Virus record (IMG/VR): IMGVR_UViG_3300025759_000748
Span: 1-22,871 of that record
Reading direction: 5' to 3' (one strand)
Source of the DNA: a virus
Length of the DNA stretch: 22,871 nucleotides
Part shown: piece by piece, positions 745-22,871 of the stretch
How positions within the stretch are numbered: position 1 is the stretch's first letter
Layout of the letters: each line of letters opens with the position of its first letter
The notes under the pieces: model-generated
Database searches by the model: none
Told to the model about the DNA's origin: nothing
Seen by the model: the letters and a program-made list of their open reading frames with translations, nothing else
Made by a program: the position numbers and the translations under genes

Positions 745-1230
745 TTATTCTATATCTAAATTTTTGTTTTTTAAATAATTAGCTGTAAAATCATAATTTT
801 CTACAGCATCAATAGTTGTTAAAGCATTAATAGCATGAACATGAGCTTTATAAACACCATGATTAGTATTTACAGTATTTATCATAAAGATATAAAGCCC
901 TCTTAATTGCGCAAGACTTATTTCAACAGAACCACCATTATAAAAATATTCAAAAGAAGCATCAGCTTCTTCAATAATTCCTAATTTTATTTGTTGTTCT
1001 AAACCTTGAATTTGTTCAGCAATTAAATTTCTACCTTCAGAAGATAATGACAAAATAAAATAATCATTAATTGTCATTTGCCTTAATTCTAATGAATTAA
1101 AATGATAATTTTCTAATTCTTTTAACTTATTTTCAATATTAAATTGTAATATTTCATTTTCATTAGCTAATTCTGCCCCAGGTTGTAAAATAGGGCTTTC
1201 AAATATACTGTTATTTATTTTCTGTAACAT
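745..1230 (-). CDS. DUF4376-like tail-fibre-associated protein
   Basis: A 161-aa protein just after the tail fibre gene. The central and C-terminal part (about residues 65-150) has the pattern of DUF4376 proteins: 'SSEGRNLIAEQIQGLEQQI', a short beta stretch with 'NGGSVEISLAQLRGLYIFM', then a helix with His residues ('YKAHVHAINAL') and an ending near 'DAVENYDF'. DUF4376 proteins commonly sit beside tail fibre genes and are taken as fibre assembly or fibre-associated factors; their biochemical role is not established. The gene has no Shine-Dalgarno sequence; the start is preceded by an AT-only leader. It could instead be a virion component of the fibre. Confidence 0.55.
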   Translation of the reverse strand: MLQKINNSIFESPILQPGAELANENEILQFNIENKLKELENYHFNSLELRQMTINDYFILSLSSEGRNLIAEQIQGLEQQIKLGIIEEADASFEYFYNGGSVEISLAQLRGLYIFMINTVNTNHGVYKAHVHAINALTTIDAVENYDFTANYLKNKNLDIE

Positions 1231-1241
1231 AATATTTTTAT

Positions 1242-2537
1242 TTATAAATCATAATCAAGATAACTGTCTAAATAAACAACAACCGAAGATGAGCCAAGCG
1301 AGACATCGTGGGAGTGTTGAATAGTGTTAGAAGTATCAGTTAAAATTGGTTTTGGTGGGCAAATGTGACTTCTCGAACTTGCCACATTACCAATCGCACC
1401 AACATAAAGCTGTCCACCTTCAACTTTTGAATTCATTTTATACCAACAAGCGGCCCCGGAGTGACCCATTACTCCGCTCAAAATAGCTCCCATTTGTAAA
1501 CCTGACGGAATTTGTAAAGTTAAATCAACTGGAGTTGTTGAAGGAGTAGCTCCTGAAAATGCAACAATAGAAGAATCAAATGTAAAACTCGCTTGACTTT
1601 CAGCAGTTTTTTTCATATTAAATCCGAGAATATTATTGCTTCCATTTGTTCTAAGGCTACCTACTCTTTTTACTTTTGTCAACCCGGCAGCAACAACTGC
1701 AGTTGAAGCAAGCAATGTTGCTCCGGTAGAATCTGTTGAACTAAACCCTGCATCTGTTAAAGTTCCATCATCATTAGTAAGCTCAAAACAATGTAAAGTT
1801 CCTGTAGCAGGTAAAGATTCTGAATCAGCCATTCCTCCATTTCCTGTTCCACTAGCCCAAGCAGCATCAGCTCTTTTTGTAATAGCCGGCATATAAGCTT
1901 TACCAGAATTATCTGAAAAACTAATAACCCCTTCTGAAAAATCTATATCATGATCAGGATCTGAACCGTTATTAGATAGTATTACCATTTGATCTAATAA
2001 CGTTAGACCTTTAGATTTATTAGTAGCATAATTTTCTAATACTTTCCAACTATTAGAGCCATCACATATTAATTTCAATATACCATAAGCATTATTTATA
2101 ACTTTTTCTGTTAATCCATCAATAGTATCAGCTCCGTTTCTTTGAACAGTAATTTTATTTGTAGAGGTAACAGTTCCTGATTCATCAATAATAAGTAATT
2201 CGCCGCCTGCAGGAAATGTAGAAGCAGCAGGTAATGACCAAATTCTTGCTGCTGACATAGTTCCAACTTGAGCAACAACTTTATCTGTAGCTAAAATTGT
2301 ATAAATTGCATCAGAAACAGTTGTTCTTCTATCAATTCCTAGATTTGCTCTTGCTTCAGCATTATCTGCAGAACCTAAAAAAGTAACAATATTTGCTGAA
2401 TATTGAGCTGATATTTTAGAAAGCAATTGTGCTATTGTAACTTTTTTATCTACACTTGATTCATTCAAATGTAAATAAGCAGCGTCACTAATTGTTCCTG
2501 TTTTGGCTGGTAAGCCCGGTATTGTAATATTTGCCAT
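1242..2537 (-). CDS. Tail fibre / receptor-binding protein
   Basis: A 431-aa protein whose N-terminus (starting MANITIPGLPAKTGTIS) resembles attachment domains of phage fibres: a short 'I-P-G-L-P' motif, a 'DAAYLHLNE' segment, and 'ARANLGI' at about residue 62, a motif typical of fibre repeats. The middle (about 95-170) looks like a beta-rich shaft module ('GGELLIIDESGTV', 'ITVQRNGADTIDG'). The C-terminal half is Ser/Thr/Gly-rich and ends in a segment containing 'QHSHDVSLG' close to the C-terminus. It is presumed to recognise the host surface at the baseplate periphery. Base composition changes sharply in the codons for the C-terminal tip, which is much richer in G+C than the rest of the window and suggests domain exchange. 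The receptor cannot be predicted. Confidence 0.7.
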   Translation of the reverse strand: MANITIPGLPAKTGTISDAAYLHLNESSVDKKVTIAQLLSKISAQYSANIVTFLGSADNAEARANLGIDRRTTVSDAIYTILATDKVVAQVGTMSAARIWSLPAASTFPAGGELLIIDESGTVTSTNKITVQRNGADTIDGLTEKVINNAYGILKLICDGSNSWKVLENYATNKSKGLTLLDQMVILSNNGSDPDHDIDFSEGVISFSDNSGKAYMPAITKRADAAWASGTGNGGMADSESLPATGTLHCFELTNDDGTLTDAGFSSTDSTGATLLASTAVVAAGLTKVKRVGSLRTNGSNNILGFNMKKTAESQASFTFDSSIVAFSGATPSTTPVDLTLQIPSGLQMGAILSGVMGHSGAACWYKMNSKVEGGQLYVGAIGNVASSRSHICPPKPILTDTSNTIQHSHDVSLGSSSVVVYLDSYLDYDL

Positions 2538-3766: not shown

Positions 3767-5211
3767 TATAATGTTACAACCATTCTACTTAAATCAAAAT
3801 TAGGTTTTTCCCTAATTGTGCAATTAATATTACTAGAACCATAAGTCGGGGTTCCACCAGCTGTTGAAGTTGAAGCAATAGTTATTGTTGCTGAACCAAT
3901 ACCTGGAATTTCATAAACAGGTTTATAAAATTTTTGTAAAACAATAACATCACCAATATTAAAATAATCTTCAGCAAATTTTAATAAAGCAGCTTTAATT
4001 GCTGCTTCGCCATCTGCCGGAAAAGTTTCTTCAGTATTATAAGAATCAATAACAACCTTAACCCAAAAATATAAATTAGTAGGTCTTGAGAATTTAATAT
4101 TATGAGGCGTATTTTGTGCATCAGTTACTTCAACTGTTACATCTCCATCTGATTTCATTCCTGCAACTTTCATCTGGAATAACTTTGCAGCAATATTTGT
4201 ATTAGAACCACCTTCAATAACTGTTTCAAAAGATTTAGCAGCTATTCCATTTGCATCTTCTGTTAATTCATCATTTTCATAAACTCTACAATAACTAGTT
4301 CCAGGAACTTCATTTAATAATTTTGCTCTAATAGCATCAACAAAATTAAATCCTGCAACTGCTATATCTTGTTGAGTTCTTAATCTTAATTCTTGTGTAT
4401 TTTCAATTGCTCTTCCTGTTTCTCCTGCATAATAATTTAAAACAGAATCTAAACCGGCTAAAGCTTCAGAAATTTCATTTATTGTTTCAGCAGCAACTTC
4501 ATTAACTCCTGTTTCTAAAGCTTGAACTTCGATTACTGTTTGAACTTTACCTACAGTTAATTTTGAATCACCTGTAATATCATAAATATCATTTTTATCA
4601 GTAGCTTCAATAGTCATTAAACCGCTACCTTCATCAGTTATAGTTAAACCAATAACAGCACCTTCAACAACAGCTTTTAATCCTGCAACAATTTCATCAG
4701 CAGTTGCTGTTCCGTCTGAAACATAAGAATAAGTATTACCATCAATATAAAAATGATAAGTAGCATTATCAGTTACAGTTGAAACTGTAAATTGAATATA
4801 ATTACAAGCGCCTTGAGTTATAAAGGCTTCAACAAGAGTTTTAAATACTAATTCGGTTGAGGATTGTTTTACTTGAGTATTAAGAGGAATTAAAGTTGCA
4901 TTATCACCTTTAAAACTTACATTTGCTGTAGAAGCAGAAGCATCTTTTTTATTAATTCCAACTAATGAAACTGCATTTTCTAAAGGAACTCCTGAAGCAG
5001 CATTTCTATTTAATGAATTATAAGTATCTTCTGCAGTTTGCCATAATGAGTCTGACATACTACCAATAAGCCCAATTATAATAGAATTAGGAGAATCTTT
5101 ACTTAGATCTGAATCTTGTCCGAACTCATTTTTCCAAGCAGTTTCTAAGTCATCTATAATTTGTTCATTTGTCTTTCTAACAAACCCGTTGCTAGTTACG
5201 CCGTATGACAT
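3766..5211 (-). CDS. Baseplate J-like wedge protein
   Basis: A 481-aa protein. Its N-terminus (residues 8-90) has the classic baseplate J sequence: 'NGFVRKTNEQIIDDLE', 'SPNSIIIGLIGSMSDSLWQ', 'AASGVPLENAVSLVGI'. The middle and C-terminus contain 'ENTQELRLRTQQDI' and 'PGTSYCRVYEN', typical of the conserved J core, and a final 'PGIGSATITIAST' segment. J proteins form the baseplate wedge around the hub and trigger sheath contraction. Residues ~138-230 look like an inserted alpha/beta module ('YHFYIDGNTYSYVSDGTAT') that interrupts the usual J core. A 53-bp spacer upstream contains a good extended -10 element. Confidence 0.85.
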   Translation of the reverse strand: MSYGVTSNGFVRKTNEQIIDDLETAWKNEFGQDSDLSKDSPNSIIIGLIGSMSDSLWQTAEDTYNSLNRNAASGVPLENAVSLVGINKKDASASTANVSFKGDNATLIPLNTQVKQSSTELVFKTLVEAFITQGACNYIQFTVSTVTDNATYHFYIDGNTYSYVSDGTATADEIVAGLKAVVEGAVIGLTITDEGSGLMTIEATDKNDIYDITGDSKLTVGKVQTVIEVQALETGVNEVAAETINEISEALAGLDSVLNYYAGETGRAIENTQELRLRTQQDIAVAGFNFVDAIRAKLLNEVPGTSYCRVYENDELTEDANGIAAKSFETVIEGGSNTNIAAKLFQMKVAGMKSDGDVTVEVTDAQNTPHNIKFSRPTNLYFWVKVVIDSYNTEETFPADGEAAIKAALLKFAEDYFNIGDVIVLQKFYKPVYEIPGIGSATITIASTSTAGGTPTYGSSNINCTIREKPNFDLSRMVVTL

Positions 5212-5230
5212 ATTTTAAATAATATTTTAA

Positions 5231-5239
5231 ATTATAACA
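5231..5239 (-). promoter_or_regulatory. Candidate extended -10 promoter element upstream of baseplate J gene
   Basis: On the minus strand the spacer between the gp25-like and J genes reads TGTTATAAT, a perfect TGn plus TATAAT extended -10 element. No good -35 hexamer is seen 17 bases upstream (TTATTT). A start of transcription would fall about 25 bases before the J ATG. In DNA this AT-rich chance matches occur; one identical 9-mer also lies inside the baseplate plug gene. Confidence 0.3.
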
Positions 5240-5264
5240 GATTTAATTTTAATAAATAATTTTG

Positions 5265-5636
5265 TTAAAGTACAATCAAATTATCAGTTATAACCGTGTT
5301 GTTAATAGAAGTAGCACTAAAAGAATAAATAACCTGGCGCTCATTTTCATTGTAATCAACTGAGCTTTCAGTTATTTCTTTAACACCTTCAATAGCTAAT
5401 AATTGCTCTCTAAATATACTTTCAAGAATATTTAGATCAATATTTTTAGTTCCTAATATATTCTCAAAGTAAGGCAATCCATGTTCTGAATTTAAATACC
5501 ACTCATTTTTAAAGAATTTAAGTCTGACCTTCATTCTTTGTAAAATTTCTTCATCAGTATTAGAACCTGATAAAATAGTTATTCTATTATTTGTAAAATA
5601 TAGATCATTTTCTGAATTTAATGCTAAAGTGCTCAT
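5265..5636 (-). CDS. gp25-like baseplate wedge protein
   Basis: A 123-aa protein with the T4 gp25 / P2 gpW fold signature. An N-terminal variable strand is followed by 'DEEILQRMKVRLKFFKNEWYL' across residues 28-48 (helix then 'EWYL'), then 'EHGLPYFENILG' (51-62), 'LESIFREQLLAIEGVKEI' (71-88) and a final beta hairpin. The E-W-x-L...G-x-P-Y-x-E pattern is the diagnostic core. These proteins sit in the wedge ring and nucleate sheath assembly with the J protein encoded next. The length matches the family. It lies 13 bases after the spike gene, with an AT-only leader and no Shine-Dalgarno sequence. Confidence 0.85.
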   Translation of the reverse strand: MSTLALNSENDLYFTNNRITILSGSNTDEEILQRMKVRLKFFKNEWYLNSEHGLPYFENILGTKNIDLNILESIFREQLLAIEGVKEITESSVDYNENERQVIYSFSATSINNTVITDNLIVL

Positions 5637-5649
5637 AATATATTTTTAA

Positions 5650-6330
5650 TTAAGTTACTGGCCCTGAAGTTCCACCACCTGGCGTAACTCCTGTATGAGT
5701 ATGAGTTGCAAAGTCTTTTCCACCAATTAAAGCCGTAGCTCCTTTTAATTCTGATGTTGCTTCTACATTTGCAGCTGTTAAATCTCCTGATATTGTAACA
5801 TTTCCGGTAATATCAACATCACCTGTAATATTTAAATTAGGGGTAGTTATATTTGCCTCTGTAGCATTAATATCAATAACTCCAGAAGGTTTTAATTTAA
5901 TTTCTGAACCATCATATTTTACTAATAAATCTGTATTATTTGCAGCAGGAGAAGGGGTTCCAAAATCTCTAAAACCTAAATGAGCTACAGCATCTGTTAA
6001 ACTATTTTGTCTAGGATCATCGGGGGTAACTTGATTTCCATTTTGTAACCATTCTTCTAAACTTTTTTCAGAAAATACTAATAAAACCTTATCACCAACA
6101 TTAACAGGAAATGTAATAGAAGCACCACCAGAAGCAGGATGAATAACTGGAACATTAAAAATAGCCGGTAATTTTACAACTTCACCATCATTATATTTTT
6201 GATTTAGAGCGGGTTGAACCTTTGCTTTTTGTTTTGTATAGTCATATTCTAATATTTTTGCAGGCATACAAATGTGCATATCAGCAATTTTATTAGCAAT
6301 AATTATATTTAATAATTCTGTTTTATTCAT
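5650..6330 (-). CDS. Baseplate central spike protein (Gp138-type N-terminus)
   Basis: A 226-aa protein. Residues 18-125 look like the Gp138 N-terminal OB-fold domain of phage spikes: 'MPAKILEYDYTKQKAKVQP', 'LPAIFNVPVIHPASGGASI', 'GDKVLLVFSEKSLEEWLQNG', then 'DAVAHLGFRDFG'. Residues ~150-200 form short repeated beta-helix-like strands ('NITGDVDITGNVTISGDLTA'). The C-terminal tip carries H210-T-H212, the HxH motif used in P2 gpV-like spikes to bind an iron ion at the apex. The protein would form the membrane-piercing trimer at the end of the tail tube. Its start overlaps the hub stop by four bases (ATGA). Confidence 0.85.
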   Translation of the reverse strand: MNKTELLNIIIANKIADMHICMPAKILEYDYTKQKAKVQPALNQKYNDGEVVKLPAIFNVPVIHPASGGASITFPVNVGDKVLLVFSEKSLEEWLQNGNQVTPDDPRQNSLTDAVAHLGFRDFGTPSPAANNTDLLVKYDGSEIKLKPSGVIDINATEANITTPNLNITGDVDITGNVTISGDLTAANVEATSELKGATALIGGKDFATHTHTGVTPGGGTSGPVT

Positions 6331-7175
6331 TTCTGTATAGCATCAATTTGGCAAAGCCAGTTATTATCTTCAGTATCACCATTAAATTTAACTTTCTTAA
6401 CTAAAAAAGTTCCTTCTATAGTTGAACTTTTAACCCTTATTAAATTTTTAGGTTGAATAGAAGGAATTATTAAACAATTAATTTTCCAACCATCGATTAA
6501 TTTATTACTTTTAGTTTTAGTTTTAACAGCTTTTTCTTTAAATCTTTTAGGTTTATCAATTAAACCTGTTTCAGGTGATAAATATTGAGCTATTGTTTGT
6601 TTATCTAACTCGTTTGGCTTAGTTATTATTAAAACATTGTTTGCGATTGTCCATTGATAGCCTATTCTTGCTAAAATAATATCTAAAGCATTTCCGGGGG
6701 CTCCTATAAAAGAAAAACCTTGTTTATAAACATAATTAGGTAATAATGAATAATCACCTTTAGCTAAATTTAATTCACCTACGATCTTTTCAAGTATTTG
6801 TTTTGTGTTTGAATCAGGGGCAAAAGATAAAGCTAATTTTTTGCTAGTTAAAGCAATATATCCATCTTTAACTGTAATTTTAGTAATAACATCAAAGCCA
6901 TTAAAATCATGCTCATATTCAACCACATTTCCAATAAATAATGTGCTTAATTCTTCACCATCATATCCTACTTTTAATATTAATGAAGTATCTTTTTCTT
7001 CTAATAAACCTACTGTTTCTTCCGAAAGATTATAAATATTAATCTTACCTGTATTAGTTTCCTTATTATCTTCCATATCAATATCAAAAGAAATACGCAC
7101 ACCATCAAGCAAACGACCTACTGAACCTAGCTTTCCTATTAAAACTTGTGCTTTTCTTTTAAATAATCTACTCAT
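6327..7175 (-). CDS. Baseplate hub protein
   Basis: A 282-aa protein between the plug and spike genes, the usual hub position in Pam3/E217-type myophages. The N-terminus contains 'LLDGVRISFDIDMEDNKETN' (22-41) and 'GKINIYNLSEETVGLLE' (43-59), a pattern common in hub proteins of the gp27/gp44-like fold. A 'LFIGNVVEYEHDF' strand follows, and later 'PGNALDIILARIGYQW', a helix seen in this family before the LysM-like part. The C-terminus ends in beta strands with 'GTFLVKKVKFNGDTED'. Hub proteins join tube and spike. No lysozyme or peptidase motif is visible, so it appears purely structural. The stop overlaps the spike start. Confidence 0.75.
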   Translation of the reverse strand: MSRLFKRKAQVLIGKLGSVGRLLDGVRISFDIDMEDNKETNTGKINIYNLSEETVGLLEEKDTSLILKVGYDGEELSTLFIGNVVEYEHDFNGFDVITKITVKDGYIALTSKKLALSFAPDSNTKQILEKIVGELNLAKGDYSLLPNYVYKQGFSFIGAPGNALDIILARIGYQWTIANNVLIITKPNELDKQTIAQYLSPETGLIDKPKRFKEKAVKTKTKSNKLIDGWKINCLIIPSIQPKNLIRVKSSTIEGTFLVKKVKFNGDTEDNNWLCQIDAIQK

Positions 7176-8109: not shown

Positions 8110-9617
8110 TGTGCTCCTAATTCAATATATGTTTGTCTATTTTCTTCTTGCAGGGCTTGTTTAATAGCCGATTTAATACTTGTAGCATCACCGGCACCCA
8201 TTCCAGAAGGAATATTAACTGTTAAACTATTATTTACTGTTCTTTGATTAGTAAGAGGGGAACTGTTTACTCCACCTGATAAAAAGCTATCTGGTAACAA
8301 ATCTCTTTGAGCTAAAAAATTATTAAAACTACCAACCATATTATTTATTCCAGAACCTACAGCAGAAAATAAAGGTTTATAATCCGTAGGACTATAATCT
8401 ATATTTTTTTGACTTTCTTTAATCTCTGAAAAACTAGGAATAAACTTACCTACAAACTTTCCCGCTTTTTTAAATAATTCTATTATTTCTTTCCAATAAA
8501 TTATTACAGTGGCTGTTGCAGCAATAAAAGCGCCTAAGGGATTTGCAGCCATTACAATTCCTAATAATCTAAACCCTGCAATTATTTTTGGTAAAAAATT
8601 GACTAATAAAACTATAGGTTTTACTAAAAGATTAAATCCTAAGACTGCAAAGCTCAATATTCTAGCTATTGCACCTAAAGCAATTAATAAAGGACCTACC
8701 ACGGCTAAAAATAAGCCTATTGATAGTATCACTTTCTTTCCACTCTCATCTAAACGCGCAAAATTATTACTAACTTTGATTAACCATTCAGCAAAAGCTG
8801 CCATTTTATCATTAATCTTAAATGTTTCGTCCATTCCTCGACCAACATTTACTCTTAACATATAAAAAGCATTAGCAATTCTATTAGCATTTGCTCTAAT
8901 TGTTTTAGAACCTTTATCAATAGCTGCACCATATTTTTTATCAATAGTATCAGCAACTTTTGATAATACATCAGAAGTAACTTCTCCTTGTTCCATCATT
9001 TTAAGTAATTGCTCGGTACTTACACCCATTGCTTCAGCGAACAAACCAACAGCACCTGGAACTGCATCACCTAATTGTAATTTCAATTCTTCAGCCATTA
9101 CTTTGCCTTTTGACTGCATTTGTTCAAGAGCTCTAATAACTCTATCAACATCTGTTGTTGTCAAACCTAAACCGGCTGACAATCCTAAGAATGATTTTAT
9201 TACTTTTCTATTGGTTTCTAAACTATCTTTTGAGGCTGCTAAATATCTTGTATAAGGCTTAACTGAGGCGCTAAAAGATACACCTAATTCATCAGTTACC
9301 TTTTTTAAATATTCTATTTCTGTTGATACAGCTTGTTCAATAGGAAGGCCGGTATCAAATTTAGCTAATACTGAGGTTAATGAGGCTTCTAAGGATTGAA
9401 TATCGGCAGCGGCTTTAATTGAAGCACCACCTAAAGCGGCTAAAGGAAGAGAAAGGGTTAATCCAATTTCTCTTCCTAATCTTGTAAAAGAATCACCTGT
9501 TGATCTTAAAGATTTGGCTGTATGTTGTAATTTAGCATCGATTTGATTTAAAGCAACGACTACAGGCCTAGCATTAGCTTGAAATGTTACTATTAATTCT
9601 TTAAGACTTGTCGCCAT
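8106..9617 (-). CDS. Tape measure protein
   Basis: A 503-aa protein. The N-terminal half (about 70-235) has the tape measure domain common in Mu-like and P2-like phages: 'AADIQSLEASLTSVL', 'TDVDRVIRALEQMQSKGKVM', 'EELKLQLGDAVPGAVGLFAE', 'AMGVSTEQLLKMMEQGEVTS'. Residues ~305-385 form a long hydrophobic tract with several potential membrane helices ('LSIGLFLAVVGPLLIALGAI'), as expected for a protein that may enter the host membrane during DNA delivery. The C-terminus is Asn/Ser-rich. It sets tail length; with about 0.15 nm per residue the tail would be near 75 nm, short for a myovirus. The start overlaps the frameshifted chaperone product. Confidence 0.9.
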   Translation of the reverse strand: MATSLKELIVTFQANARPVVVALNQIDAKLQHTAKSLRSTGDSFTRLGREIGLTLSLPLAALGGASIKAAADIQSLEASLTSVLAKFDTGLPIEQAVSTEIEYLKKVTDELGVSFSASVKPYTRYLAASKDSLETNRKVIKSFLGLSAGLGLTTTDVDRVIRALEQMQSKGKVMAEELKLQLGDAVPGAVGLFAEAMGVSTEQLLKMMEQGEVTSDVLSKVADTIDKKYGAAIDKGSKTIRANANRIANAFYMLRVNVGRGMDETFKINDKMAAFAEWLIKVSNNFARLDESGKKVILSIGLFLAVVGPLLIALGAIARILSFAVLGFNLLVKPIVLLVNFLPKIIAGFRLLGIVMAANPLGAFIAATATVIIYWKEIIELFKKAGKFVGKFIPSFSEIKESQKNIDYSPTDYKPLFSAVGSGINNMVGSFNNFLAQRDLLPDSFLSGGVNSSPLTNQRTVNNSLTVNIPSGMGAGDATSIKSAIKQALQEENRQTYIELGAQ

Positions 9618-16215: not shown

Positions 16216-17370
16216 TTATTGATTGTTAGTAGATTTTTTAATTAAGTCTCTTTGTAAGTCTTGGTTGCTAATTGTAACTTCAGAATCACCAGAATCTTTT
16301 TTGTTACTTGCTACTTTAATATTAGCAGCTAATTTTGAATCTTTTCTTAAATTCAAAATAGTATCAAAGCAAGCTGAAACATATTCTTCACTTTTTTCAT
16401 CAGCTTTAAATTCTGGAGAAACAGTTTGAATTACTTTAGTCTTGATTTCTGAATCAGAAAGAGAAGATAAATCTTCATCTTCTTTTAAAACTTCAGAAGC
16501 TCTTTTTTCTAAAGAAATACGAGCTTTAACTTTTTCTGCTATTTCATCAGAATTATCTTTTTTATTTGATAATTCTTCAACTTTAGAAGTAAGAGCTAAT
16601 TTTTCGCCTTCCAAAGAATCTGCTTTACTTTTTAATTCTTTTTCAGTGTTTTTTAGATTAGAAATTTCTGTTTCAAGAGTATCAAGTCTTGAAAAGACTT
16701 CCTCTGAAACTTCAACTTCCTTTCCATCTATTTTATATTTTTTCATAATTAGATTTTCGTTATTGTTATTGAAGTTATTAAAAACACAAATAGCTTCTTG
16801 TCCATCAAGTCTAAGTTTAGCTTTGTCGCCAGCTCGTCCTTGATAAACAATGGCCAGATGATTCCCTTTTATATCCGTTTGAATATAATCATATCTTTCT
16901 CCTTTGTAAACACCTTCTTTTTTAACTAAGTTAACTTTATATCCATAACTTAGTCCGCGCTTACCAGAATTTATTTGATCAATAGTAGCTTTATCAGTTA
17001 TTTTTAATTTAGTCATTAAATAACTGTCAAGCTTTTTTATTTCTTCACCAGTATAACCAACAGCTAATTCTTTAGCATTATCTGAGTTAACTTCTTGTAA
17101 AGGATGATCGTTTGTTATTGGTAGTAATTTGAATGAGTTAATTGCATCTTCTTTAAATACTTCTTCTGGAAGTCTTAACTCTCTTTGAATTGAGCCATCA
17201 GCTCTCATATATTTGAAAACTCCGGTTCGAGTAGCAATAGCAAAGCCCTCTAGGTAACCTTCATCGGTTTTAGTTAATTTTGTATCATCTAAATGGATAT
17301 TATCATATCTTGTAGCTGCTACAGTTTCAACGCTATCAGTTTTAATTTGCTCGTTTATATTTTTTGACAC
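16216..17370 (-). CDS. DUF2213 prohead protease with C-terminal scaffold domain
   Basis: A 384-aa protein. Residues ~20-190 are DUF2213: 'GYLEGFAIATRTGVFKYMR' (38-56), 'LLPITNDHP' with His89, 'GKRGLSYGYK' with Ser141, and 'GNHLAIVYQGRAGDKAKLRL'. His and Ser in these contexts are the likely catalytic pair of the assemblin-type prohead protease fold. Residues ~220-300 form a Glu/Lys/Leu-rich coiled coil ('LETEISNLKNTEKELKSKAD') and the remainder is helical and charged, as in scaffold domains. An internal ATG at residue 209 (position 16746) could give a separate 176-aa scaffold. The start is a GTG three bases after the lipoprotein stop; an N-terminus nearer residue 20 would match most relatives, but no better start is seen. 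Confidence 0.8.
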   Translation of the reverse strand: MSKNINEQIKTDSVETVAATRYDNIHLDDTKLTKTDEGYLEGFAIATRTGVFKYMRADGSIQRELRLPEEVFKEDAINSFKLLPITNDHPLQEVNSDNAKELAVGYTGEEIKKLDSYLMTKLKITDKATIDQINSGKRGLSYGYKVNLVKKEGVYKGERYDYIQTDIKGNHLAIVYQGRAGDKAKLRLDGQEAICVFNNFNNNNENLIMKKYKIDGKEVEVSEEVFSRLDTLETEISNLKNTEKELKSKADSLEGEKLALTSKVEELSNKKDNSDEIAEKVKARISLEKRASEVLKEDEDLSSLSDSEIKTKVIQTVSPEFKADEKSEEYVSACFDTILNLRKDSKLAANIKVASNKKDSGDSEVTISNQDLQRDLIKKSTNNQ

Positions 17371-17373
17371 AAT

Positions 17374-17856
17374 CTAATTAATATCAATTTTAATTTTCCT
17401 ATCTAATTCAACCTTTGAAAATAGAAAGGCGTTAAATAATGTCGTTCCTTTTCTTTCTATTACTTTTAGCGTTTTATTATCATTATATAAATTATACCTT
17501 AATACATCTTTTGCTGAAATGTAAACTATTAAATTACAATTCTTTGATCTTGCAAAATCCTTTAAGCTTTCTTCATTCACAACAAATAATTCATCAGTAG
17601 AAAATTTAGTAATATGTGTAACTGCATATCCTTCTAAATCAACTGATAAAGCTACTAAAGTTGAAGGTATATCTTTTATCTCTTCTAATTTAATAACTTT
17701 TACTTCTGTTACTTTTTCATTAGTCTTTCTCAAAGAAAGATCTGAATCAAAAGTATTTTCTTTTAATCTTTGCTCAAAATCAACTTTGTTAGCAAAGTTG
17801 TTCATTGAAGCACAAGAAACAGTAAATAGTAAAATTACAATTGTAAATATTTTCAT
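17374..17856 (-). CDS. Phage-encoded lipoprotein (moron-like)
   Basis: A 160-aa protein beginning with a short basic start and hydrophobic stretch ending in a lipobox-like 'FTVSC' with Cys15, indicating export and lipidation. The rest is hydrophilic, with beta-like segments ('STLVALSVDLEGYAVTHITK', 'NCNLIVYISAKDVLRYNLY') and no recognised domain. The -3 position is Thr rather than Leu, so the lipobox is not ideal. A secreted lipoprotein has no obvious part in head assembly, yet the gene sits between the MuF-like and protease genes. It has its own extended -10 promoter and, unlike most neighbours, a strong Shine-Dalgarno (AAGGAT, six bases before ATG). Phage lipoproteins often block superinfection or alter the host surface; that role is inference here. 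Confidence 0.75.
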   Translation of the reverse strand: MKIFTIVILLFTVSCASMNNFANKVDFEQRLKENTFDSDLSLRKTNEKVTEVKVIKLEEIKDIPSTLVALSVDLEGYAVTHITKFSTDELFVVNEESLKDFARSKNCNLIVYISAKDVLRYNLYNDNKTLKVIERKGTTLFNAFLFSKVELDRKIKIDIN

Positions 17857-17862
17857 GATTTT

Positions 17863-17868
17863 ATCCTT
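17863..17868 (-). promoter_or_regulatory. Strong Shine-Dalgarno of the lipoprotein gene
   Basis: AAGGAT lies six bases before the ATG on the minus strand. Most intergenic starts in this window have only A/T leaders, so this site is unusual and suggests independent translation. Confidence 0.7.
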
Positions 17869-17893
17869 TTAAGTTTTTAAAGTACACAATTTA

Positions 17894-17902
17894 ATTATAA
17901 CA
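17894..17902 (-). promoter_or_regulatory. Extended -10 promoter for the lipoprotein gene
   Basis: The 77-bp gap upstream of the lipoprotein gene contains TGTTATAAT on the minus strand: a perfect TATAAT with the extended TGn. The -35 region is weak (TGTATT with 17-base spacing). Transcription would start near 17887, about 30 bases before the ATG. This is one of the longer gaps in the head operon. Confidence 0.55.
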
Positions 17903-17933
17903 CGTTTCTATTTAAAAATACATAAGATTTATT

Positions 17934-18794
17934 TTACTCAAACATTTCATCAGTAATTATAGGTTGAGCTGTGCATCTACATCTAATTTGAGAACCAGGG
18001 TGACCAGTTATTGATGATGGATTATTCCAATTAAATATTTTTCCTTCATTAGCTAAATGGGTTGCACGTTCTCTTTCATCTAATGAACCTGACCACCAAT
18101 ATTCACCAATTCCTAATTCTTGTTGTCTTAATTGAGCTAAATTACCGTTAAATTTATTGGTTTGATCTCTAGCAATTAATCTTGCACGCCTTTCACTAAT
18201 ACCAAAGTTTTTAGCAATTTCTTCTCTTATAACCTTTGCACCATTACCTGCAGCAAGATTTCTATAAAGAGTATTTTGCATTCTATCAGCTTGTTCTACT
18301 GATAATTTAGTTATTAATGCTGAATTTTCAGCTTGAAAAGCTTTAATTTGTGGGCCAAGATAAGGTTCAGCAATAATTGGATTTACTTGAACGGCCGAAT
18401 GAACTACCTTAACAAGCTGCTCTTTATTGTAAGTTGATATTCTTTCAGCTTGATCAGCTGTTAAATTATTAACATTTGCAGAAACAATAATAGAATTTAA
18501 ATCTATTGTTGTTGCTTTAACTAATTCATTTATAGTATCAACCCAACCTAAATCTAATTTTCTATTAACATCGTCGGGCCTATCTTGTTTAGCCTGACTA
18601 ACTAAAAAATCTAATTCAGGATAGAGTTTATCTCTAATAGCAAAACTGAGTTTTCTATTTAAAGCAACTAATTCTTTTTCATAAGTTCTTTGAGCATTAT
18701 GTGGATATAACCACTTTTTAATTCTCTTCTTAACTTTTACCTTACCACCATGGGCAATAAGAACTTGTTGTTTAAATATTGGATTTAAAGCCAT
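17934..18794 (-). CDS. MuF-like minor head (head morphogenesis) protein
   Basis: A 286-aa protein. The N-terminal two thirds are helical. Residues ~200-280 are the Mu gpF / SPP1 gp7 domain: 'ISERRARLIARDQTNKFNG' (199-217), 'EYWWSGSLDERERATHLANE' (231-250) with His246, then 'GKIFNWNNP', 'GHPGSQIRCRC' with Cys272 and Cys274. The 'W-x-x-S-x-D-x-R-x-R-x-x-H' and 'P-G...CRC' motifs are diagnostic. Such proteins bind the portal and enter the head, and may be ejected with DNA. No toxin domain is fused to the C-terminus. The start lies eight bases after the Acb2/Tad1-like stop. Confidence 0.85.
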   Translation of the reverse strand: MALNPIFKQQVLIAHGGKVKVKKRIKKWLYPHNAQRTYEKELVALNRKLSFAIRDKLYPELDFLVSQAKQDRPDDVNRKLDLGWVDTINELVKATTIDLNSIIVSANVNNLTADQAERISTYNKEQLVKVVHSAVQVNPIIAEPYLGPQIKAFQAENSALITKLSVEQADRMQNTLYRNLAAGNGAKVIREEIAKNFGISERRARLIARDQTNKFNGNLAQLRQQELGIGEYWWSGSLDERERATHLANEGKIFNWNNPSSITGHPGSQIRCRCTAQPIITDEMFE

Positions 18795-18802
18795 ATTTAA
18801 AA

Positions 18803-19033
18803 TTATTTATTAGTAGTTAAAGCTTTAACTGCCCACATTGCTGCTTCTTCATAAGCAGTTTGAGCTAATTTTATTAATCTAATTTTTTCTTTATCTTCTG
18901 GTAATTCTTCACCAACATAATCTATTAAATTAATTAATTTAGCTGTATTTTGTTTAACAGTATCAATAGTTTCAACATGAGAGGGATTAAAATCAGTTCT
19001 TACACGTTGTTCGCCTAATGTTTTATTTTTCAT
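18803..19033 (-). CDS. Acb2/Tad1-like cyclic-nucleotide sponge family protein (candidate)
   Basis: A 76-aa protein starting at ATG 19033, overlapping the portal end by 11 bases. An in-frame ATG at 19075 would lie deep in the portal gene and give an atypical basic extension, so it is not used. It begins 'LGEQRVRTDFNPS' (residues 6-18), continues with one helix ('TIDTVKQNTAKLINLIDYV', 22-40), a short acidic turn, and a second helix ending 'LAQTAYEEAAMWAVKAL' (56-72). This two-helix hairpin with R-V-R-x-x-F-N-P-S and a final E-E-A-x-M-W-A-V-K-A matches, to my recollection, small phage proteins grouped with the Acb2/Tad1 hairpin domain. Studied family members bind cyclic di- and trinucleotides or gcADPR and so block CBASS or Thoeris. 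The activity of this protein is not shown by the sequence. Confidence 0.6.
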   Translation of the reverse strand: MKNKTLGEQRVRTDFNPSHVETIDTVKQNTAKLINLIDYVGEELPEDKEKIRLIKLAQTAYEEAAMWAVKALTTNK

Positions 19034-20378
19034 TTTCTTTTTTATTTGAGTTAATCTTTTTAGTATCATCTTCAAAACTACCTAAATCAACTTCACCTTC
19101 AACATCAGTTTCAATTGAATATTTACCGTTGGCAAATCTTGATTCTCTTACTTCTTCAGGACTATAAACACCATTTCCAATATAAATCTGATCAGTTTCA
19201 GCTTGGACTTTTCTCATATTAACTTTTTCAGAATCTGTTTGTTGCCATAAAGAACCTAATTCAATATTATATTCTTGATCAAAACTCAAACCCGCATCTT
19301 TAGCATAAGAAATATATTCTGTTAGTTTTTCAGCATTAGGTAATAACTCTTCTTCTTGATCAGATTTAATTTTATCATAATAAACTCTAACTTCATTATC
19401 ACCTGTTGCATTTAATCCACCGGCAGATTTACCCCAGAAAATACTTACAGGAACGCCTGTTATTCCAGTTAGCGCTTCTTGAGTTTTAGTAAAGACTTCA
19501 GCAACCCCTGTTAATGTTTGAGAAACGGCTTCAAATGATTCTTTAGAATCTAATAATAAAGTTGTTGAAACTGATTTAGCTAAGTCAAAGCTAGAGGCTC
19601 TAGCTGCTAATTGTTTTTGTCCATCAGGGTTTTTCAAAAGCTGCATTAAATTTTCAATCTTCAAAACATCAATATTAGATTTAGAAAGCAATCTCATTAA
19701 TGATTGATGGGCAATCCCATATTCTTCTAAATCTTCATAAATAGCTTGAAGAATAGACAAACCCCAATATTTTTCATAGTTTGGTTGCATTCCTAATTCT
19801 TCTGATGGATAATATTCACCTTGAAAAACTAAACATCTTGATTCATGAACAGTTGTTGGAATACCACCTTCTGGATATAACTCAAAATATTCTGGTTCAC
19901 CAAACATTTCAGTAGTTGGATCAGAATAATAATTAGTATCATTGATCACAACATTTTTTCTACTGAAAAACTTAAGCTTCTTGATTGATTTAATATTTTT
20001 AATATCAACAGGCTCATTTGGTTCTCTTCCATCATCAATAACCATAAAAATAACAGCACCACCAAAAAGCTTAGCTGCTCTAATAGCTTTTTTAAATTCT
20101 GATTTAGCTTTTAAATTTTTAAGATAGTTTAACATTTTTCCTTCAGTATCTTCTGGAATTGTAAACCACTGGCGCACCATATCATCACTTAAAAGATCGA
20201 TATATCTTTTAGTTAAACCATTTCCGGTATATAAAGCAGCAAATAAAGCATCATCAGCTAAAGTTAATGAAAAGCCTGTATTACCCGCCGTTTTAGTTCC
20301 TATCTTTTTGGCTATATCAACATAACCATCTTCATTAAAAGAATCTATTCTTTTAGTTGTTTGTTTTTTGTTTGTCAT
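19023..20378 (-). CDS. Portal protein (DUF1073)
   Basis: A 451-aa portal. Key stretches are 'LYTGNGLTKRYIDLLSDDMV' (49-68), 'RAAKLFGGAVIFMVIDDG' (100-117), 'HESRCLVFQGEYYP' (178-191), 'WGLSILQAIYEDLEEYGIAH' (205-224) and 'LTGITGVPVSIFWGKSAGGL' (303-322), then 'NATGDNEVRVYYDKIKSDQE'. These match DUF1073 portals, the dodecameric ring through which DNA enters the head. Some databases label this family after the anti-CBASS enzyme Acb1, but no paired 2H-phosphoesterase domain follows here, so the portal role is the right reading. The start overlaps the terL stop as ATGA. Confidence 0.9.
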   Translation of the reverse strand: MTNKKQTTKRIDSFNEDGYVDIAKKIGTKTAGNTGFSLTLADDALFAALYTGNGLTKRYIDLLSDDMVRQWFTIPEDTEGKMLNYLKNLKAKSEFKKAIRAAKLFGGAVIFMVIDDGREPNEPVDIKNIKSIKKLKFFSRKNVVINDTNYYSDPTTEMFGEPEYFELYPEGGIPTTVHESRCLVFQGEYYPSEELGMQPNYEKYWGLSILQAIYEDLEEYGIAHQSLMRLLSKSNIDVLKIENLMQLLKNPDGQKQLAARASSFDLAKSVSTTLLLDSKESFEAVSQTLTGVAEVFTKTQEALTGITGVPVSIFWGKSAGGLNATGDNEVRVYYDKIKSDQEEELLPNAEKLTEYISYAKDAGLSFDQEYNIELGSLWQQTDSEKVNMRKVQAETDQIYIGNGVYSPEEVRESRFANGKYSIETDVEGEVDLGSFEDDTKKINSNKKENEK

Positions 20379-21940
20379 AATGTATTCATTTCATTTATTA
20401 AACTAGAATAATCAGGTGGTCTAAGTTTATCATCTTCTATATCAAAAAGTAAATCTTTAATAGCATAAGTTAAAGTATCGACCTGATCTTTTTTATTATT
20501 ATTCTTTTTTGATGAAAAAAGAAGTAATTCTTTTTCTAATTGAGTTAAGAAAGGAGCATCTTTAGGAAATAATACTTGACCTGATTCCATTCTAGGTAAA
20601 ATATCATTAGCTCTTGCCACTTTGTCTTTATCTGGTAATAATTTTGTTACTGGAATATTTGTTGTTTCTTCTAAACTTTGAATTAATCCTGAACCTGAAT
20701 TTTTCTTTTCAATTGCAAACTTGATCAAATTACTATCTTCATTCAAAGTATACATATTAGGAATCCAATCACTAACATATTTGTAAGGGTGGCTTAAATC
20801 TTTAGAATGCTTATCCCAAAACTCTTGAGCAGCTACTAAAAGCTTAGGGCTGCTTAGTTTATCACGCATTATATCAATCAAATAAATATATTTTCTACCA
20901 TTGATAAATCTAACTCCGAAGCACATAAAAACGGTATAATCATGTTGTCTTCCTTCTTCTTGAGCAGTATCAGCATACAAACATTTATAATCCATTTTAG
21001 GAAGATAAGTATAATATTTGAACCATTTCCTTTTAAATACTTCGCCATCATCTGGCTGAGTAGCTTGAAAGAATTGAGCCTCTACCGTTTTTGTTCCCAT
21101 TAATCTAATATCTTCTTCTAATTCTTTTTCACCATATCTTCTAGGTTCTAAAAACTCACCTTTCTTATAAACTTTTGTAAAATTACCAAAGCTATAAATC
21201 TTTGTTTGTCTTGCTTTAATTGGAATAATAACATTTTCCCATTTATCATCAACAAAGCTTCCTGTAAAATCTTCATCACATAATCTTTGCTGAATATTAA
21301 GCTTTTGGCCTGTTTTTCTATTATTAAACCTAGAAAAAGCAGTTCCTTTAGTCCAATCTAAAGCGGAAGTTCTTTGAGTTAAAGATAAAGCCTCTTCAGG
21401 GTTCATTAAATCATCAAATATCAATATTTTAGCACCTTCACCTGTAATAGCACCATTTGTTGACGCAGCTATCCTAAAACCTCCCTCTGTTGTAATAAAC
21501 TGACTTTGAGTATTTTTAGTTTCTGTTTCGTCTGTTTTTAAAAACTTTGCTGAATTATCAATTTTGAAATGTGGAAAAGCCCTTTTATACCATTTTGTAT
21601 TTGAAATAGCTCGGCCATAACCATGAAGTTTTTGTGATAAAGTTGCACCGTAAGAAATACTGATAAGCTTCATTTTAGGATCTTGACCTAAAAGCCACAT
21701 TGAAAAAGCAACATTACATAAAGCTGATTTACCAAATCTAGGAGGAATATTTATATTTAAATTTTGAATTTCACCTCTTCCAAAAGCTTCTAAATATTCA
21801 CAAAGCAATTCAATATACCAATTATCTAAATAAGTTTCTCCAGCATCAAATTTAGAAAAAGCTTGTTCGTAGAAGCAACTTAATTTAGTTTGAACTAAAT
21901 GATCTAATGTATCTGTATTGTAAATATCATTATTCATCAT
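20375..21940 (-). CDS. terL: Terminase large subunit
   Basis: A 521-aa packaging motor. The N-terminal ATPase shows Walker A 'PPRFGKS' (66-72), Walker B 'ILIFDD' (172-177) and a likely coupling region near 'SRFNNRKTGQKLNIQQRLCD' (203-222). The C-terminal RNase H-like nuclease has D324 ('LYADTAQEEG'), E411 ('AIEKKNSGSGLIQSL') and D488 ('DQVDTLTYAIKDLL'), the expected acidic metal-binding residues. It cuts and translocates phage DNA into the prohead through the portal. It overlaps the small-subunit gene by 11 bases. The full set of motifs and length suggest an intact enzyme. The packaging mode (cos or headful) cannot be told. Confidence 0.95.
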   Translation of the reverse strand: MMNNDIYNTDTLDHLVQTKLSCFYEQAFSKFDAGETYLDNWYIELLCEYLEAFGRGEIQNLNINIPPRFGKSALCNVAFSMWLLGQDPKMKLISISYGATLSQKLHGYGRAISNTKWYKRAFPHFKIDNSAKFLKTDETETKNTQSQFITTEGGFRIAASTNGAITGEGAKILIFDDLMNPEEALSLTQRTSALDWTKGTAFSRFNNRKTGQKLNIQQRLCDEDFTGSFVDDKWENVIIPIKARQTKIYSFGNFTKVYKKGEFLEPRRYGEKELEEDIRLMGTKTVEAQFFQATQPDDGEVFKRKWFKYYTYLPKMDYKCLYADTAQEEGRQHDYTVFMCFGVRFINGRKYIYLIDIMRDKLSSPKLLVAAQEFWDKHSKDLSHPYKYVSDWIPNMYTLNEDSNLIKFAIEKKNSGSGLIQSLEETTNIPVTKLLPDKDKVARANDILPRMESGQVLFPKDAPFLTQLEKELLLFSSKKNNNKKDQVDTLTYAIKDLLFDIEDDKLRPPDYSSLINEMNTL

Positions 21941-22370
21941 TTAGTTTTTTAGCATGTTTTTCTATTTGGCGATTAATCAACTCTCTTTCTTTTTCTGACA
22001 ATTCAGTTGTATCTGTAACTGTTGCATCAAGAATATTTTTCTGAACAGGTTTGCCTTCTGTTCTGTCCATAATATCATTCCAGGCAGATAAAGCTGTTTT
22101 TTCATCAGTTAAAGCTCCATTAGCAATTTCAAGCATAGAATAAACTTCTAATCCTATTTCTTCTACTAATTGAGCTTTATCAGTCTGACCTGCTTTTTTA
22201 AGAGCAGCAGCCTTTTCTTTTGCCATAAATTCAAGAGCAATTTTAAACCTTTCTTTTAAGTCTTTTTTCTTTCTTCTAACCTCACCAGATTTTTTTCCTC
22301 CAGCCCTAGCTATCTGCTGTTGTTCTTCTGTTGTTCGATCAGCTAAAGAAATTAAATCTTTTTTAGCCAT
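21930..22370 (-). CDS. Terminase small subunit (putative)
   Basis: A 146-aa helical protein with 'RTTEEQQQIARAGGKKSGEV' (12-31), then a run of Arg/Lys ('RRKKKDLKERFKIAL'), and 'AWNDIMDRTEGKPVQKN' (100-116). The 'A-R-x-G-G-K-K-S-G-E-V-R-R-x-K-K' opening and the 'R-x-E-G-K-P-x-Q' motif are typical of small terminase proteins encoded directly upstream of terL. It would recognise the packaging site and load TerL. The basic N-terminus fits DNA binding. It starts 11 bases after the stop of the small upstream ORF. Confidence 0.75.
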   Translation of the reverse strand: MAKKDLISLADRTTEEQQQIARAGGKKSGEVRRKKKDLKERFKIALEFMAKEKAAALKKAGQTDKAQLVEEIGLEVYSMLEIANGALTDEKTALSAWNDIMDRTEGKPVQKNILDATVTDTTELSEKERELINRQIEKHAKKLNDE

Positions 22371-22381
22371 TTTTTAAGTTT

Positions 22382-22585
22382 TTATTCTTTATTGTTTAAA
22401 GATATTGATTTATTTAAATAAAAATTAGCTTCTTCAAGTTTCTGCTTCATTATATCAAACTCTCTTCCTCCTTCAGAATCTAAAGCTGCTATATCATTCA
22501 TTAAAGTGCTAAAAATTTGTTTAGATTGTTTAATTCTATCAATTCCTTCTTTAGTTATTGGAAAACTTTCAAATAATTTATTCAT
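22382..22585 (-). CDS. Small hypothetical protein, first gene of the operon
   Basis: A 67-aa protein of unknown function. It is helical and mixed in charge ('IKQSKQIFSTLMNDIAALDS', then 'DIMKQKLEEANFYLNKSIS'), with no membrane segment. No domain is recognised. It is the first gene after the ~285-bp leader and lies just before terS. The 'EEANFYLNKSI' ending resembles the short helical hairpin proteins found in phage genomes, but this is not enough for a call. Confidence 0.6.
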   Translation of the reverse strand: MNKLFESFPITKEGIDRIKQSKQIFSTLMNDIAALDSEGGREFDIMKQKLEEANFYLNKSISLNNKE

Positions 22586-22616
22586 GATAATAAATAAGTT
22601 TGGTTAATATTAAATG

Positions 22617-22650
22617 TTAAGATAATATAATTGAACTTACATTATCTTAA
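22617..22650. repeat. 10-bp perfect inverted repeat near the operon start
   Basis: TTAAGATAAT (22617-22626) and ATTATCTTAA (22641-22650) are separated by 14 bases. With one mismatch the pairing extends to 14 bp. It could be an operator or a 5' leader hairpin of the first transcript. Confidence 0.6.
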
Positions 22651-22700
22651 TATTCATAAATTATATTTTATAAATCAAAAAAGTACATGATATTTATAAA

Positions 22701-22788
22701 GGTTTTAAGAAAGTTTCAACAGGTTTTAAGCCTTGAAACCTCCACCAAGCCAATGTTTATATATCTCCGGGAGGCTAAAAGTTTTAAG
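22701..22788. repeat. Three GTTTTAAG direct repeats
   Basis: GGTTTTAAG occurs at 22701-22709 and 22722-22730, exactly 21 bases apart, and GTTTTAAG again at 22781-22788. Two helical turns between the first two would place them on the same face of DNA. Within the same segment, GTTTCAA/TTGAAAC (22713-22719, 22733-22739) and GCTAAAA/TTTTAGC (22774-22780, 22798-22804) form inverted pairs. Confidence 0.55.
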
Positions 22789-22835
22789 TTTTGAGGTTTT
22801 TAGCAAGTAGATCCCTTATATACATATTATTATTT

Positions 22836-22871
22836 ATATTTTTTATATTTTTTATATTTTTTATATTTTTT
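22836..22871. repeat. 9-bp AT tandem repeat at window edge
   Basis: The unit atatttttt is repeated four times without mismatch and runs to the right edge, so its full length is unknown. It gives phased A-tracts on the minus strand, which may bend DNA. Confidence 0.85.

Follow-up and report, generated by a model that had tools for sequence, protein, structure and literature searches.

A candidate signal sponge of the Acb2/Tad1 hairpin family encoded between the portal and MuF genes of a virus

HP76, a protein of 76 aa encoded among the head genes of a virus, is a member of the Acb2/Tad1 hairpin family (PF24729) and is not classed as Acb2 proper or as Tad1. The family is known, and those of its members that have been studied bind and withhold alarm molecules produced by bacteria under infection; HP76 belongs to a branch of it that lacks the key dinucleotide-binding Tyr. 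On balance, HP76 is probably a sponge of this family that holds a host cyclic oligonucleotide and is made together with the virion proteins. The window, i.e. the whole stretch of DNA that was analysed, is 22,871 nt long and represents positions 1 to 22,871 of IMG/VR record IMGVR_UViG_3300025759_000748.

Gene, head operon and virus

The genes of the window that are considered here are the following.

22382..22585, minus strand: hp2, a 67-aa hairpin-like protein directly before the terS-like gene
21930..22370, minus strand: probable terminase small subunit (terS-like), from phrog_2538 (E 1e-4) and its position before terL
20375..21940, minus strand: terminase large subunit (terL), phrog_38 with 279.1 bits, PF17289 and PF03237
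19023..20378, minus strand: portal protein (Phage_portal_3), PF06381 with 256.5 bits, phrog_146
18803..19033, minus strand: HP76, a 76-aa PF24729 (Acb2/Tad1 hairpin) protein and candidate cyclic-oligonucleotide sponge
17934..18794, minus strand: MuF head morphogenesis protein, PF04233 with 72.4 bits, phrog_324

The minus-strand translation of 18803-19033 is MKNKTLGEQRVRTDFNPSHVETIDTVKQNTAKLINLIDYVGEELPEDKEKIRLIKLAQTAYEEAAMWAVKALTTNK (76 aa) and contains RVRTDFNPS and AQTAYEEAAMWAVKA; the RVR opening and the AQTAYEEAAMWAVKA ending that a preliminary description had read in the product are both present. The same description had placed the gene between the portal and MuF genes, overlapping the former, and the coordinates agree: on the minus strand the portal ORF and HP76 overlap by 11 nt, and 8 nt separate the HP76 stop from the start of the MuF ORF (18794). 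The ATG at 19033 is preceded by the A/G-rich stretch AAAAAGAAAATG, a modest ribosome site. The order of the operon is terS-like gene, terL, portal, HP76, MuF, a small lipoprotein-like gene, DUF2213 protease, cement protein and major capsid protein. The match of the terS-like gene to phrog_2538 (E 1e-4) is weaker than that to phrog_2412, which is of unknown function (3.1e-10). A promoter scan of 17300-22871 was uninformative (29 sites versus 31.4 in shuffles), and the three terminator-like sites in the same region (1.4 in shuffles) all lie within the portal ORF.

Between MuF and the head maturation protease, a 160-aa protein (17374-17856, minus strand) carries a lipoprotein-type signal, LLFTVSCAS, recognized by eye, and has weak PHROG matches only; it is possibly another cargo gene of the head operon. 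A second contig of the same virus species, IMG/VR 3300006916_000102 (41,760 nt), shows 14 differences from the window over 10,846 aligned nt, none of which falls in HP76 or hp2. Among the isolated phages listed, the best share about 31% identity with the window in the terminase and about 31% in the capsid protein.

Family membership and predicted fold

The preliminary description had associated the product with the Acb2/Tad1 hairpin, and a profile search bears this out: HP76 matches Pfam PF24729 with 41.7 bits (E 1.4e-10) against a curated cut-off of 27. The same profile gives 66.1 bits for PaMx33 Acb2 and 71.4 bits for T4 Vs.4. In one scan of IMG/VR contigs, 168 relatives of HP76 had E values of 1e-3 or lower; the top 80 were retained, and 56 of these were aligned with HP76 (n = 57). 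PF24729 is matched at 0.001 by all 57 aligned members of the clade, across which 16 columns are invariant. Among isolated phages, tblastn with a threshold of E 0.01 returned 150 records, of which 146 are Flavobacterium phages, many of them near-identical. If HP76 is a sponge, many phage genes, counting the relatives from this one scan and those in the Flavobacterium phage records, would be signal sponges.

Comparison of profiles with hhalign matched the HP76 clade to the PaMx33 Acb2 clade (PaMx33 and 39 of the best 80 loci from 308 relatives) at 93.9%, E 1.5e-7, over 54 columns, and to T4 Vs.4 at 76.1%, E 2.3e-5. The HP76-clade profile gave no useful alignment with the single PaMx33 sequence. 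Against PDB sequences, the sole phmmer match of HP76 was a designed TIM barrel, and the clade profile recovered T4 Vs.4 at E 0.0072, behind that same designed protein at 0.0015. PADLOC returned no match for HP76, a null that is uninformative because PaMx33 Acb2 was also missed. DinI (PF06183; 14 bits, cut-off 24.2) and NCBIfam PRK11413 (10.9 bits, cut-off 641) were rejected as candidates, both scores being far under the cut-off. HP76 also matches the C-terminal part of phrog_717, a much longer family of unknown function (profile positions 211-282 of 289), which may point to hairpin domains fused to a larger partner.

AlphaFold2 models HP76 with a mean pLDDT of 94.8 as helices at residues 6-11, 21-43 and 48-73 and no strand. 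The model, a short first helix followed by two long helices that form a hairpin, has the arrangement that a review gives for the Acb2 protomer (PMC12043709), and is of the hairpin kind proposed beforehand. Among predicted viral structures, the top three matches all carry the name Acb2/Tad1 hairpin protein (E 3.1e-4, 1.1e-3 and 0.15). When the PDB was searched with HP76 by Foldseek, no match reached E 0.001, and Acb2 chains were absent from the best 50 of 59 matches. Upon realignment of the Foldseek candidates, T4 Vs.4 (7UQ2) ranked third (Z 7.0, rmsd 2.5, 61 residues, 23% identity), tied with unrelated helical proteins; Acb2 8H2X scored lower than T4 Vs.4 (Z 5.6, rmsd 3.2, 61 residues) and was likewise tied with unrelated helical proteins. 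The predicted fold agrees with Acb2 without proving it, and for this reason the family assignment rests on sequence evidence.

Scores of this kind could also arise if a generic helical hairpin resembled the family by chance, given that short helical proteins readily match and that the PDB structure searches give unrelated hairpins at similar scores. This explanation is nevertheless very improbable in view of the 41.7 bits against a curated cut-off of 27, the match of 57 of 57 relatives, the profile-profile E of 1.5e-7, and the same Lys and Met that are invariant in both clades. A search of the open-licence literature, to which subscription papers mostly do not belong, returned no binding, oligomer or infection data for the HP76 clade, and no residue studies or accounts of Acb2 among structural genes for that clade. 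In a Microbacterium phage announcement (PMC13348362), an Acb2 gene is named by annotation only.

Binding-site residues and comparison with known members

Residues were compared in a joint alignment of 57 HP76-clade rows, 40 PaMx33-type rows and T4 Acb2. The rows of both clades are best-scoring relatives, and invariance among them may be overstated. Three codons were located from this alignment.

18953..18955, minus strand: codon of K27
18878..18880, minus strand: codon of R52
18857..18859, minus strand: codon of T59

K27 of HP76 aligns with PaMx33 K26 and T4 K23, the column being Lys in 57/57 and 40/40 rows; K26 of PaMx33 Acb2 reportedly matters for binding. R52 aligns with PaMx33 R67 (57/57; 36/40) and with an Asp in T4, and T59 aligns with PaMx33 T74 and T4 T68 (55/57; 34/40). 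R67 and T74 are said to be part of the trinucleotide pocket. M66 aligns with PaMx33 M81 and T4 M75 (57/57 and 40/40), and K70 with PaMx33 R85 and T4 R79. For T4 Acb2, the T68M substitution lowers binding affinity according to PMC12657230.

The column of the dinucleotide-binding Tyr (T4 Y8, PaMx33 Y11) holds Tyr in 40/40 PaMx33-type rows and is a gap in 57/57 HP76-clade rows. According to two reports, Y8A disrupts dinucleotide binding by T4 Acb2 (PMC12657218, PMC12657230) and F82 stacks on the base (PMC12657218). In the F82 column HP76 has T73, with Thr in all 57 clade rows, and PaMx33 has Ala. The likeness to Acb2 claimed for HP76 holds in part, for homology to the PaMx33 Acb2 clade by hhalign but not for the dinucleotide-binding Tyr. 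Since this Tyr is absent from 57 clade members, likeness to Acb2 does not have to extend to the ligand pocket, and because the hairpin residues are kept while the Tyr is gone, HP76 may, judging from its residues, prefer cyclic trinucleotides. If HP76 is a sponge, the specificity of such sponges could not be read from T4 or PaMx33 Acb2.

G7, R10, R12, F15 and the YEEAAMWA block are invariant in 57/57 HP76-clade rows. Together with the loss of the known dinucleotide-pocket Tyr, this clade-specific set favors a reading in which HP76 keeps the sponge fold and binds a different signal (gcADPR-type Thoeris, histidine-ADPR or an undescribed nucleotide), or is a decoy or regulator, and is not a CBASS sponge. 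A new N-terminus that is conserved throughout points to a distinct and defined ligand, and Tad1, which goes under the same family name, is described in a review as binding both gcADPR and cyclic nucleotides (PMC12043709). The same review, however, has the gcADPR pocket of Tad1 built from loops of the N-terminal part and the C-terminal tail besides the helices, the HP76 model has no strand, and the kept K, T and M positions and the basic K70/R85 position match Acb2. We regard a different signal or role of this kind as unlikely, though it is the strongest of the rival explanations.

T4 Acb2 (Vs.4, PDB 7UQ2) is, like HP76, a PF24729 hairpin, and the motif T-x-x-x-E-A-x-M-W-A is common to both; T4 Acb2 has Y8 and F82 in its dinucleotide pocket, whereas HP76 has neither. 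In T4 the neighbors of vs.4 are small genes near regB and vs and not head genes, in contrast to HP76. Acb2 of Pseudomonas phage PaMx33 (ORF24), into whose clade PDB 8H2J/8H2X fall, shares with HP76 the hairpin homology and the aligned pairs K26/K27, R67/R52, T74/T59, M81/M66 and R85/K70. It opens with GYR-L, including an invariant Tyr, whereas HP76 opens with RVR-FNPS, and ORF24 lies on the strand opposite to the preceding structural genes, whereas HP76 is on the same strand as the head operon. Tad1 shares the name of the PF24729 hairpin family with HP76 and is described as a hexamer with trinucleotide sites in the same review (PMC12043709). It has an N-terminal antiparallel beta-sheet, whereas HP76, with 76 aa, is all helix in the model; a Tad1 identity was set aside, as the model has no beta domain. 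Gp60 of Flavobacterium phage FCL-2 belongs to the same clade as HP76 (49.3% identity over residues 5-71), and the FCV-1 copy of this relative matches PF24729 with 51.4 bits. FCL-2 gp60 lies shortly after RusA and about 32 kb from the FCL-2 portal gene, whereas HP76 adjoins the portal gene; gp60 and its relatives are annotated only as hypothetical.

Genomic contexts and proposed function

Neighbors were surveyed at 64 of the best 80 loci, 16 having been dropped by eye (identical contig, near copies), and were counted as the nearest same-strand proteins of at least 140 aa within 3 kb, which gave 111 proteins. Terminase and portal families were frequent in the tally of these neighbors. Thirty proteins, comprising 29 of the 111 and one terminase farther away, were scanned singly. 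At least 18 of the 64 distinct relative loci have a neighbor verified as a terminase, portal or major head protein (L017, L022, L024, L028, L030, L041, L042, L048, L051, L054, L055, L057, L059, L060, L073, L076, L081 and L082), a lower bound because 82 of the 111 neighbors were only tallied. At L048 and L051 the head-type neighbor is more than 1 kb away, and at L042, L054, L057, L059 and L073 an unnamed PHROG outscores the terminase PHROG. Six singly scanned neighbors (L016, L036, L039, L040, L044 and L065) had no match at 1e-10. At L017, L028, L081 and L082 the clade gene lies between terminase and portal.

The same arrangement occurs in the PaMx33-type clade, where acb2 is flanked by verified TerL and portal genes in L108 (5001-5282) and L172 (5001-5267), the terminase beside it being phrog_15 in both. 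In lambda, this place is taken by gpW. Placement among head genes is thus compatible with a sponge. The contrast tally of PaMx33-type loci (87 neighbors, 54 loci) also includes terminase and portal families, and a head-gene neighborhood is therefore not claimed to be special to the HP76 clade or commoner than chance; what the tallies show is that the arrangement recurs. Ten PaMx33-type neighbors at six loci were checked singly: tail sheath and tape measure proteins were found at L158 and nucleotide metabolism proteins at L110 and L115, and nothing matched the neighbor at L174.

HP76 could alternatively be an assembly factor of the head module (scaffold, connector or packaging helper) whose resemblance to sponges is structural only. 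Its place in the portal-MuF interval, overlapping the portal gene, and the at least 18 of 64 relative loci with a verified TerL, portal or major head neighbor speak for such a role, as does L022, a Mu-like contig with a portal gene (4280-5674), a 103-aa gene, the hairpin gene (5965-6195) and then an ORF (6200-7003) with a MuF match. The L022 portal (phrog_113) and the window portal (phrog_146) belong to unrelated families, and phmmer found no similarity between the MuF proteins of L022 and the window. A search of 49 records with the MuF profile found MuF in six, and among these the hairpin gene directly precedes MuF only in the species of the window and in L022; in L024 it precedes portal and MuF, and in the other three MuF lies several kb or more away. 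We take the likeness of L022 and the window to mean that the gene was inserted repeatedly where the late genes tolerate it, although a structural link with MuF or portal could also explain it.

A part that docks to portal or capsid should follow one lineage, but the terminase and portal genes next to the relatives of HP76 belong to unrelated families (phrog_2, phrog_9, phrog_38, phrog_12, phrog_113, phrog_12082 and others). Relatives also occur in replication regions: that of L020 has a DNA polymerase gene about 1 kb away, and that of an elemo phage is near an Erf annealing protein gene. Relatives in such unrelated contexts, replication genes included, have about 50-60% identity. In L084, which has a portal 35% identical to that of the window and a MuF gene, an unrelated 151-aa protein (8355-8807) fills the portal-MuF slot. 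The structural role offered as an alternative in the preliminary description is weakened by the unrelated contexts, while the unrelated phage L022 repeats the portal-hairpin-MuF order of the window; because the placement is position-independent, a structural head role is ranked low and is decidedly unlikely. The unrelated contexts suit a protein that acts on a diffusible host molecule. A scan of bacterial genomes with one short pattern found eight loci, and a CD-NTase (SMODS) was present in 2/8 host genomes carrying a clade member, too few for inference. Contig L053 carries the clade gene twice in inverted orientation, at 1036-1248 (plus strand) and 4971-5189 (minus strand); the copies are near-identical, the latter differing near its end as if frame-shifted, and the pair may be an assembly palindrome.

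As a sponge, HP76 would be translated from the head operon alongside the portal and MuF proteins, presumably late. Its two long helices would assemble the protein into a hexamer, which would hold a host cyclic oligonucleotide alarm signal (CBASS or related) intact and thereby keep the suicide effector off while virions are built. The likeliest ligand would be a cyclic trinucleotide in a three-fold pocket. Counted in favor of the sponge were the PF24729 match, the fold, the hhalign match to the PaMx33 clade, the Acb2/Tad1-named matches among predicted viral structures, the kept K27, M66 and T59, the unrelated contexts, the L084 slot and the place of PaMx33-type acb2 in L108 and L172. Counted against it were the Tyr gap, the replacement of F82 by T73, the lack of a significant PDB Foldseek match, the tied Vs.4 alignment, the null with the single PaMx33 sequence, the L022 interval, the CD-NTase count of 2/8 and the null outcome of the literature search.

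A Frontiers review has Acb2 acting in prophage induction and not in maintenance (PMC12043709), which fits expression in the lytic phase and might account for the placement of HP76. A sponge made with head proteins would pose a question of timing. Acb2 can trigger Panoptes defence according to two reports (PMC12657218, PMC12657230), and because of this the phage could gain from making the sponge at no other time than with its head proteins. More tentatively, and with less confidence than the sponge function itself, the RVR-FNPS...YEEAAMWAVKA clade is conceivable as a separate, widely mobile sponge lineage that lacks the dinucleotide-binding Tyr and is specialised on another signal, a trinucleotide or one undescribed. 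It would have been installed repeatedly in the terminase-portal and portal-MuF intervals of unrelated phages and so be made with virion proteins, here perhaps paired with an hp2 of different specificity.

The hp2 protein scores 26.7 bits with PF24729, just under the cut-off of 27, and is modelled, without its first Met, as a helical hairpin (pLDDT 80.6). In the joint alignment it keeps the Lys (K19), the Arg (R41) and K59, and its residue in the Tyr column is Phe. Profile comparison with the HP76 clade gave a weak match (11.6%, E 0.0026), a scan for relatives returned the same species only, and structural realignment had three chains to align, none of them Acb2. The phage may thus carry two genes of the sponge family, HP76 and hp2. 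In Pasteurella phage Pmp11, a PF24729 protein (L096:5995-6219; 42.5 bits) is encoded between the lysis genes and terS, directly before the latter and hence in the same place as hp2.
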